In this document: in pieces, positions 54,914 to 61,007 of the stretch | Position numbering within the stretch: the first letter of the stretch is position 1 | Layout: each line of letters begins with the position of its first letter | Assembly: GCF_000023705.1 (NCBI RefSeq) | Contig: NC_012968.1 | Location: forward strand, 2,170,001 to 2,234,000 | Length of the DNA: 64,000 nucleotides | Source of the DNA: Methylotenera mobilis JLW8 | GTDB lineage: Bacteria; Pseudomonadota; Gammaproteobacteria; Burkholderiales; Methylophilaceae | Direction of reading: 5' to 3' | Position numbers and translations under genes: made by a program | The notes under the pieces: generated by a model | Databases searched by the model: none | What the model was told of the DNA's origin: nothing | The model's input: the letters and a program-made list of their open reading frames with translations, nothing else

Positions 54914-54964
54914 ACAAAGGGCGCATCAACAAACCATATAGTGGTTTATTGATGCGCCCTTTGT
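54914..54964. terminator. Bidirectional terminator between lplT and ndh
   Basis: A long inverted repeat with CAAAGGGCGCATCAA on the left pairing with TTGATGCGCCCTTTG on the right, extended by AAACCA/TGGTTT with one mismatch. The genes on both sides converge here. The stem is among the longest in the window. Confidence 0.88.
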
Positions 54965-56357: not shown

Positions 56358-56400
56358 ATAAAAAAACGCTTACTGAGCATCAGTAAGCGTTTTCTATTTT
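56358..56400 (-). terminator. Terminator after the lipoprotein cytochrome c
   Basis: On the minus strand AAAACGCTTACTGA, a short TGC loop, TCAGTAAGCGTTTT and a T run form a textbook intrinsic terminator between the cytochrome gene and ndh. Confidence 0.9.
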
Positions 56401-58848: not shown

Positions 58849-58878
58849 AAAAAACACCCCGACGAATCGGGGTGTTTT
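58849..58878 (-). terminator. Terminator after xoxF
   Basis: On the minus strand AAAACACCCCGA, loop TTCG, TCGGGGTGTTTT and a T run: a strong intrinsic terminator about 65 bases after the xoxF stop. Confidence 0.93.
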
Positions 58879-58942: not shown

Positions 58943-60814
58943 TTATAGGCTGAATACGTTCAATGCACCGCCGCCAGGAGCAGCGTTGTATTTAACTAGT
59001 TCAGCATAACCACCAGCAGCACCTAAAGCGTCTGTTGGAGTAGTCATACCAAGGTTCATCGCAACACCAGCCCAGCCACCGATACCTGATAGCACGCCAA
59101 CGTATTGTTTACCTTTGTTACCGTATGTGAATGCGTTACCAATCACGCCAGAACCAACTTGGAATTTCCAAAGTTCTTTACCTGATTTAGCATCAACAGC
59201 TTTGAACCAACGATCTAAAGTACCGTAGAACACTAGGTCAGTTGCAGTAGTTAAAGCACCACCCCAAGCTGAGAATTTCTCTTTGTTGTACCATACTTTT
59301 TTGTTGGTCATTGGGTCATAAGCACCGAAGCCACCCATCACACCGTCTGGACCTGGGAACATTGTTAATGTTGCACCAACCCATGGTTGACCAGCAACGT
59401 ATTTAGACTCAACTGGCTCGTATGTCATACATACGTGGTTCAATGGAGAATATACTAAGCCAGTTTTTGGTGAGTATGCAGCTGGTTGTTGGTCTTTAGT
59501 ACCCAATGCAGCTGGACATACGCCTTTAGCGTTGTAGTCTTGGTGAGTAGAAGCTGATGCCAATTTGTTTGGTACACCAGTTTTCATGTCAACATCAGTT
59601 GCCCAGTTTACGAATGGGTGAACTTTTTGAGCAGCTTGTAATTTACCGTTGTGTGCATTCCATGTGTAAGCGAAGCCGTTACGGTCATGGTGCCAAGCGT
59701 ATGTTTTGCCACCTTTGTCGAACAAGATTACTTCGTTGATACCGTCGTAGTCCCACTCGTCATGTGGAGTCATTTGCATACCCCATTTTGCAACGCCAGT
59801 GTCTAAGTCACGTGCGAATACAGTCATAGACCATTTGTTGTCGCCTGGACGTACGTCTGGGTTCCAAACAGAAGGGTTACCTGTACCGTAGTAAACTAAG
59901 TTTGTACGTGCATCATATGGCCACCAGCCCCATACAGAGCCACCACCATGTTGCCAACCATCTTTAACTGCTTGTGGTTTCAACCATGTACGTGTACCTA
60001 GATCTTTTTCGCCAAATTTGATTTGGTCGTTAGGTAATTTTTTGAAAGAACCGCCTTCTTTGTTGCCGCCGTTTACGTCTTGGTAAACTGACAATGCACT
60101 GTATTCAGGAGTTTCTTTGTTGAAGTCTGCACCGATCAACACTTCAGAGTCAGGACCTGTTGAGTATGCTTTCCATGCTAAAGAACCGTCTTTAGCGTTG
60201 TATGCTGCGATAAAGCAACGTACGCCGAACTCAGCACCTGAACAACCTGTCAATACTTTGTCTTTGATTACGTGTGGAGCGTTAGTGTTAGTAGCGCCAA
60301 CTTTTGGATCGTTGATCAATGTTGACCATACTTTAGCACCAGTTTTAGCGTCTAAAGCTACTAAGTTGCCATCGTTTTGTTGTAGGTAGATTTTACCGTC
60401 GCCGAAGCCAAGACCACGTGAAACGTTGTCACAGCACAATACAGCTTGTACTGATGGATCTTGTTTAGGGAAGTATGACCAAACGATTTTTTGATTGTTG
60501 TCTAGGTCTAATGCGTATACGTTGTTTGGGAATGCTGTATGTACATACATCATGTTACCAACAACGATTGGTGAACCTTCGTGACCACGGTTTACACCAG
60601 TAGCGAATGTCCAAGCTGCTTTAAGATTTTTAACGTTGCCTTTGTTCACTTGTGACAAAGCGCTGTAGCCGTTGTTGTTGTGCTGACCACGTGGGTGAGC
60701 CCAGTTGTTCGCGTCTTTCATTGCCGCTTCTTGATCAGCAGCTGCTGATGCGATCAAAGGCATCGCCATACCTGCTACCAAGCCAAGTGCTAACTTGATT
60801 TTGTTGATTTGCAT
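58943..60814 (-). CDS. xoxF: Lanthanide-dependent methanol dehydrogenase XoxF
   Basis: A 623-residue periplasmic PQQ enzyme that oxidises methanol to formaldehyde or formate. The signal peptide ends ASAA near residue 24. The vicinal disulfide that stacks on PQQ is C127-C128 (LCCDNVSRG). Metal ligands E195 (SGAEFG) and N313 (GTGNPS) are present. The catalytic Asp355 is followed by Asp357 (WDYDG), the extra acidic residue that marks lanthanide enzymes; calcium MxaF lacks it. The ATG at 60814 has GGAG six bases upstream. No mxaFI genes are in the window. Confidence 0.97.
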   Translation of the reverse strand: MQINKIKLALGLVAGMAMPLIASAAADQEAAMKDANNWAHPRGQHNNNGYSALSQVNKGNVKNLKAAWTFATGVNRGHEGSPIVVGNMMYVHTAFPNNVYALDLDNNQKIVWSYFPKQDPSVQAVLCCDNVSRGLGFGDGKIYLQQNDGNLVALDAKTGAKVWSTLINDPKVGATNTNAPHVIKDKVLTGCSGAEFGVRCFIAAYNAKDGSLAWKAYSTGPDSEVLIGADFNKETPEYSALSVYQDVNGGNKEGGSFKKLPNDQIKFGEKDLGTRTWLKPQAVKDGWQHGGGSVWGWWPYDARTNLVYYGTGNPSVWNPDVRPGDNKWSMTVFARDLDTGVAKWGMQMTPHDEWDYDGINEVILFDKGGKTYAWHHDRNGFAYTWNAHNGKLQAAQKVHPFVNWATDVDMKTGVPNKLASASTHQDYNAKGVCPAALGTKDQQPAAYSPKTGLVYSPLNHVCMTYEPVESKYVAGQPWVGATLTMFPGPDGVMGGFGAYDPMTNKKVWYNKEKFSAWGGALTTATDLVFYGTLDRWFKAVDAKSGKELWKFQVGSGVIGNAFTYGNKGKQYVGVLSGIGGWAGVAMNLGMTTPTDALGAAGGYAELVKYNAAPGGGALNVFSL

Positions 60815-60849
60815 ATTAATCTCCAAAGTTAAACTACTAAGGTTTAAAT

Positions 60850-60922
60850 AAATAGATTCATAACTAAACTAATAAATTTTTGATGTTCCTCAAAATTTTT
60901 ACTAGCCTTTATGAATCTATTT
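60850..60922. repeat. 14-base inverted repeat in the xoxF leader
   Basis: AAATAGATTCATAA (60850-60863) and TTATGAATCTATTT (60909-60922) are perfect inverted copies 45 bases apart. Both lie between the predicted xoxF transcription start and its ribosome-binding site, so the RNA could form a long stem. Confidence 0.9.
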
Positions 60923-60924
60923 GT

Positions 60925-60941
60925 AGCACACTTAATGTGCT
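60925..60941. promoter_or_regulatory. Palindrome at the xoxF transcription start
   Basis: AGCACA, spacer CTTAA, TGTGCT: a perfect interrupted palindrome just downstream of the predicted start. It may be an operator or a 5' stabilising hairpin. Confidence 0.6.
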
Positions 60942-60949
60942 TGAACAGA

Positions 60950-60978
60950 ACTATAAACCAGTGAATCATGAATTGCAA
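60950..60978 (-). promoter_or_regulatory. Sigma-70 promoter of xoxF
   Basis: On the minus strand the -35 element TTGCAA (60978-60973) and the -10 element TATAGT (60955-60950) are 17 bases apart. The predicted start near 60943 gives a leader of about 130 nucleotides. Confidence 0.7.
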
Positions 60979-60985
60979 TACATTG

Positions 60986-61007
60986 TTTACAATTTATTTA
61001 CAATTAA
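60986..61007. promoter_or_regulatory. Two 11-base direct repeats upstream of the xoxF promoter
   Basis: TTTACAATTTA (60986-60996) and TTTACAATTAA (60997-61007) are head to tail, one helical turn apart, and centred near -48 and -59 from the predicted start. This is a common position for an activator such as a response regulator. The regulator is not identified. Confidence 0.55.

Follow-up and report, generated by a model that had tools for sequence, protein, structure and literature searches.

The Methylophilaceae are a methanol-eating family of bacteria, and of their methanol-oxidising enzymes the one encoded by xoxF is used most; in methylotrophs of fresh water and of the sea, XoxF ranks among the most abundant proteins. 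In Methylotenera mobilis JLW8 the start codon of this gene is preceded by a long predicted mRNA leader bearing two perfectly inverted 14-nt sequences, which raises the question of what such a leader might do for a message of this kind. We have analysed it within a stretch of 64,000 nt of the genome (hereafter, the window) and in the relatives of this bacterium.

The xoxF locus and its promoter

In the window xoxF occupies positions 58943–60814 of the minus strand and specifies a lanthanide-type methanol dehydrogenase of 623 amino acids, which is assigned to the PQQ methanol/ethanol dehydrogenase family. Next come genes resembling xoxJ and xoxG. The predicted promoter, also on the minus strand, consists of a –35 box (TTGCAA, 60973–60978), the surroundings of which are conserved in 110 family leaders, and a –10 box (TATAGT, 60950–60955) separated from it by 17 nt, a spacing which is kept family-wide. 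Transcription is thus predicted to start at about 60942 which, with the ATG at 60814, would give a leader of approximately 128 nt. This agrees with the preliminary description, in which a leader of some 130 nt was proposed to enclose both 14-nt arms (60850–60863 and 60909–60922), as the predicted one would. The promoter upstream of 60909 is conserved across the family, a conservation that was in part selected by the way in which the sites were found. The Shine-Dalgarno sequence is GGAG (60821–60824, minus strand).

Just upstream of the –35 box are two 11-bp direct repeats, TTGTAAATAAA-TTGTAAACAAT (60973–61003, minus strand), which are conserved family-wide as TTGTAANTAAATTGTAACNAANTNTTGCAAT and, in the genome from which the window derives, are present only before xoxF. 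Their 11-bp spacing suggests a site for an activator of the OmpR/PhoB type. At the other end of the gene a strong hairpin with a U tail, AAAACACCCCGAUUCGUCGGGGUGUUUUUU (58849–58878, minus strand), is situated 60–75 nt past the stop codon; it is conserved in the genus and is probably a terminator preceding xoxJ. Weak matches to Rfam near 58850 belong to this GC-rich hairpin and not to the leader.

Fold of the leader

The two arms, which are 45 nt apart, are 100% complementary, and such a repeat was absent from all 3000 surrogates generated for the intergenic region (301 nt). Markov surrogates of the whole window (n = 15) possessed a mean of 0.07 such repeats versus the three distinct loci found, that at xoxF included. 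The window harbors two further perfect inverted repeats of 14–16 nt, at 54914–54964 and 56363–56393. The leader folds with –38.9 kcal/mol (z = –6.5 relative to exact dinucleotide shuffles), the lowest folding z among 41 upstream regions of the window. The second lowest value (–4.0) was recorded for the 130 nt upstream of 62168 on the plus strand, where there is a gene which, judged from its translation only, is YihY/cyclic-nucleotide-domain-like.

In the minimum-energy fold a long hairpin (P2) is preceded by a short one (P1) and followed by a weak one (P3) at the Shine-Dalgarno sequence, all read from the minus strand. P1, the 5'-terminal hairpin AGCACAU-UAA-GUGUGCU (60925–60941), is defined by the fold and by its position, which is kept in family leaders. 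P2 (60850–60922), defined by the fold and by covariation, comprises helices of 14, 11 and 6 pairs, in this order from its base, with a 2-nt bulge between the first two, a 2x1 internal loop between the second and third, and the loop GGAACA. Its basal helix P2a (60909–60922 with 60850–60863) is the reported repeat; P2b (60898–60908 with 60866–60876) has the apical helix UUUUGA/UCAAAA inside it (60866–60908), and the cap, P2c, is UUUUGA-GGAACA-UCAAAA (60878–60895). P3 is CCUUAGU-AGUUUA-ACUUUGG (60823–60842), and takes in the GG of the Shine-Dalgarno sequence. The 14-mer repeat therefore forms the base of P2, a long RNA hairpin and one of the three parts of the leader. That the repeat forms a stem was rightly supposed, but this stem is only a portion of a fold that contains 11 + 6 further pairs and two flanking elements.

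Two familiar kinds of leader were considered and rejected at this point. The loop of P2 in the window contains GGA, as would a target of CsrA/RsmA, but this triplet is absent from the loops of most relatives; and a consistent U-run after P2, as would befit a terminator or attenuator, was not seen.

Covariation and strand specificity

Alignment of 29 leaders from the genus with MAFFT followed by RNAalifold failed to recover P2, the arms of which differ too much in sequence to be aligned. This was overcome with a covariance model built from four genus leaders and with an alignment-free exchange of arms. In the resulting genus alignment 91.6% of the cells are paired and 29 of 36 pairs exhibit two-sided changes, the cells bearing such changes numbering 162 versus 48 in shuffles. 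None of 500 shuffles equalled the alignment on any pairing measure, and pairing falls to 33–47% when the partner is slid. For helix 1, which is P1, 96.7% of cells are paired, with two-sided change in four of five pairs. Since this alignment was fitted to the structure and includes one spurious antisense row, an alignment-free test was added, using 49 leaders with P2 regions that were less than 75% alike. Cognate arms of P2 pair with a mean of –19.5 kcal/mol versus –10.7 kcal/mol for swapped arms (permutation z = –16.7), and within the genus alone 0 of 20,000 permutations attained the observed value.

The RNA of the leader also folds better than its own reverse complement in 46 of these 49 leaders (Wilcoxon P = 2e-9), the mean folding z being –3.8 for the sense and –2.1 for the antisense strand. 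From the pairing of cognate arms and this asymmetry we infer that selection acts on RNA of the xoxF strand. The earlier suggestion of a long stem upstream of the ribosome-binding site that acts as RNA is thereby supported, and it survived the check proposed with it, a lack of compensatory changes in the arms: such changes are plentiful among relatives. The perfect 14-mer arms of the window might otherwise have been taken for a DNA-level operator, a palindrome which is merely transcribed. Since the arm sequences are not conserved and contain many G-U pairs, and since the strand asymmetry largely refutes it, we consider that explanation hardly credible.

Nor does the shape of P2 lend itself to a processing site. 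The rod of the window, with its 14 + 11 + 6 pairs and small interruptions, is in principle long enough for RNase III to cut it and so create the mature 5' end of the mRNA, but in many relatives (e.g., L016, L021 and L043) it is broken into helices of 5–8 pairs, and processing of this type appears very improbable.

Distribution in the Methylophilaceae

A protein search for xoxF loci in 52 genomes of the genus provided the set of leaders in which 37 non-identical leaders share one plan: P1, P2, and then CCUUAGUAGUUYAACUUUGGAG. Within the genus the arms of P2 differ while the cap, UUUGAG..ACAUCAAA, is mostly the same; outside the genus this cap is not conserved. Two leaders (L038 and L040) have P2 lengthened to about 112 nt beneath the genus cap. 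The covariance model matches 37 of the genus leaders. In the family it has a single match in each of 86 genomes out of 187, which represent 12 of 24 genera. In 47 of 48 matches which were fetched xoxF lies directly downstream, the remaining one being at a contig end. When the regions before the remaining xoxF genes were read, the plan, inclusive of P3, was found in 20 of the 24 genera of Methylophilaceae in all; carriers include Methylotenera, Methylophilus, Methylobacillus, Methylovorus, Ca. Methylopumilus, Novimethylophilus and the OM43 strain HTCC2181. The leader is thus a real RNA element, so far restricted to this one family.

Based upon 110 family leaders, P1 starts 7–9 nt past the –10 hexamer in 103, which places it at the very bases with which transcription is predicted to begin, and is represented by 83 distinct sequences; the few leaders in which it lies elsewhere are largely mis-called hairpins. 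P2 retains its pairing while its sequence and its length (about 80–114 nt) change. Between genera, P1 and the interior of P2 share no conserved core.

Screening with cmscan against Rfam 15 gave no match for the leader of the window on the xoxF strand up to E = 5, nor for the leaders of 19 relatives up to E = 1, in keeping with the initial impression that it belongs to no recognised riboswitch family. An account of the leader was not found in a literature search to which preprints and most subscription journals were external. It is therefore a new RNA element of the structured mRNA leader kind for which we found no earlier description, and it would deserve an entry of its own as an RNA family.

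Might it nevertheless be a riboswitch, responding for example to a lanthanide, PQQ or a C1 metabolite? It shares with the riboswitch families of Rfam 15 the character of a structured cis-element in a 5' leader; it is long, precedes the gene for a metal enzyme, is conserved in a segment around the ribosome-binding site and stands outside the known families. Unlike them it lacks an aptamer-like core: neither P1 nor the interior of P2 contains a core conserved from genus to genus, and no alternative pairing was seen. In addition there is a single match per genome, the genes for uptake, PQQ and mxaF being devoid of the leader, and it is present with or without presumed mxaF. We regard a ligand-binding switch as quite unlikely. 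Of the two roles initially put forward the RNA switch has therefore received little support, because conservation is limited to the start region and the interior of P2 varies from genus to genus, while a 5' stabiliser, given the placement of P1 relative to the –10 box, fits best. A device for switching between xox and mxa systems was likewise dismissed, since the leader occurs whether or not a genome has the 51%-identical paralogue which is presumed to be mxaF.

The start element P3

Whereas P1 and P2 are free in sequence, P3 is near-invariant (CCUUAGU-loop-ACUWYGG-AG); it contains the Shine-Dalgarno sequence and is the sole part of the leader conserved in sequence. Among the 110 leaders, CCUUAGU is combined with ACUUUGG in 75, ACUAUGG in 28 and ACUACGG in 4 (107 in total), while the loops, of 4–9 nt, vary freely. 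Taken alone P3 has a predicted stability of –0.7 to –3.4 kcal/mol, which is marginal, and the probability of its CC-GG pairs averages 0.52 over 49 leaders and is 0.02 in the window. It would therefore seem that what is conserved is sequence more than a firm hairpin. The mean probability that GGAG is unpaired is 0.41 in the same 49 leaders. In one genome of the genus (L017) there is a tandem duplication within P3, TTAGTAGTTTAACTT being repeated.

The P3 pattern occurs once in the genome of the window. In 399 genomes of the order it was found before xoxF in 12 family genomes, and in two copies in a further genome (G307), where the sequence is unrelated and lies upstream of a transposase-like gene; we attribute these copies to chance. 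When 84,980 species genomes were scanned, at least 80 stretches emerged, and 72 of the matches listed are at xoxF, 69 as identified by tblastn and three being cut by the ends of the record or locus.

This degree of conservation exceeds what protection of an mRNA would need, and points to a trans-acting partner or to specific control of initiation, whether exerted by such a partner or by the ribosome itself. P3 might accordingly be a translational operator, at which a putative protein or sRNA closes or opens the Shine-Dalgarno sequence, with P1 and P2 as accessories. Like the hairpins of autogenous or sRNA-controlled operators it is short, conserved and overlaps the Shine-Dalgarno sequence; the pattern is found almost only before xoxF; and in an OM43 relative the level of the xoxF transcript varies about 20-fold with nutrients (PMC5120137). 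It differs from those operators in the weakness of its hairpin and in its confinement to one gene per genome, which would leave the partner, itself hypothetical, to serve xoxF alone. We would call this possible, albeit on the unlikely side. Somewhat more tentative is the proposal of a new class of cis-regulatory RNA, dedicated to lanthanide methanol dehydrogenase: either a factor of its own or a metal or C1 signal, acting on P3, would switch the translation of XoxF.

A proposed protective leader

Our preferred reading, to which we assign a probability of about one half, is that the leader is a 5' protector of a very abundant mRNA, of the type exemplified by ompA, coupled to a conserved translation-start element. 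Pairing kept under free sequence in P1 and P2, the location of P1 at the predicted 5' end and the abundance of the message together fit a protective leader of this kind. As in ompA, the first stem lies within a few nucleotides of the predicted 5' end and it is pairing, not sequence, that is kept. The freedom of P2 in both sequence and length is what one would expect of a part with a mechanical role more than of one that binds.

By analogy with the ompA 5' stem-loop in E. coli, P1 would leave no single-stranded 5' end for the decay enzymes RppH and RNase E to attack. P2 would fill the leader with double strand, and so keep single-stranded, RNase-accessible RNA off the start site, while P3 would set or tune ribosome loading. 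In concert with the strong hairpin past the stop codon, the leader might give rise to a long-lived, nearly monocistronic and highly translated xoxF message.

According to references cited in PMC3997798 and PMC2777011, 5' stem-loops stabilise the ompA and papA mRNAs. The xoxF leader resembles these in its predicted hairpin at the extreme 5' end, its further structure, its ribosome-binding segment and the abundance of its mRNA. There is no homology to ompA, however, and the xoxF leader, a putative stabiliser, has in addition a near-invariant element at the translation start, shared family-wide, and a long rod in which the sequence is free.

In the OM43 relative the xoxF transcript always outnumbers all others, with about 83 copies per cell in exponential phase, and unlike any other gene xoxF maintains at least one transcript per cell even in stationary phase; xoxJ and xoxG are lower, though part of the same operon (PMC5120137). 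The hairpin downstream of xoxF could give the same imbalance between xoxF and xoxJG, so that the abundance data are not in themselves proof of a role for the leader. Against protection by a leader of the ompA type it may also be said that other abundant mRNAs do without one and that P3, being only marginally stable, may not adopt its hairpin form securely. For tests of post-transcriptional control in the case of a lanthanide enzyme the leader provides a concrete, mutable target, and to those who engineer methylotrophs it gives a strong leader that is ready for use.

Leaders of xoxF paralogues

Other xoxF paralogues within the same genomes have different leaders. A second class of these (L035, L039, L042, L046, L047, L056 and L184) possesses its own conserved upstream element, CUGUCAUCCUAGUGCCAGUUUUAUGUGAGCAA, which is unrelated to the leader described here. 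In genus g15, which includes Methylophilus, leaders L160–L164, L175 and L178 contain long inserts in P2 with AUCCUAGUG..GGCA, and this motif resembles the CCUAGUGCCAG element of the paralogue leaders.
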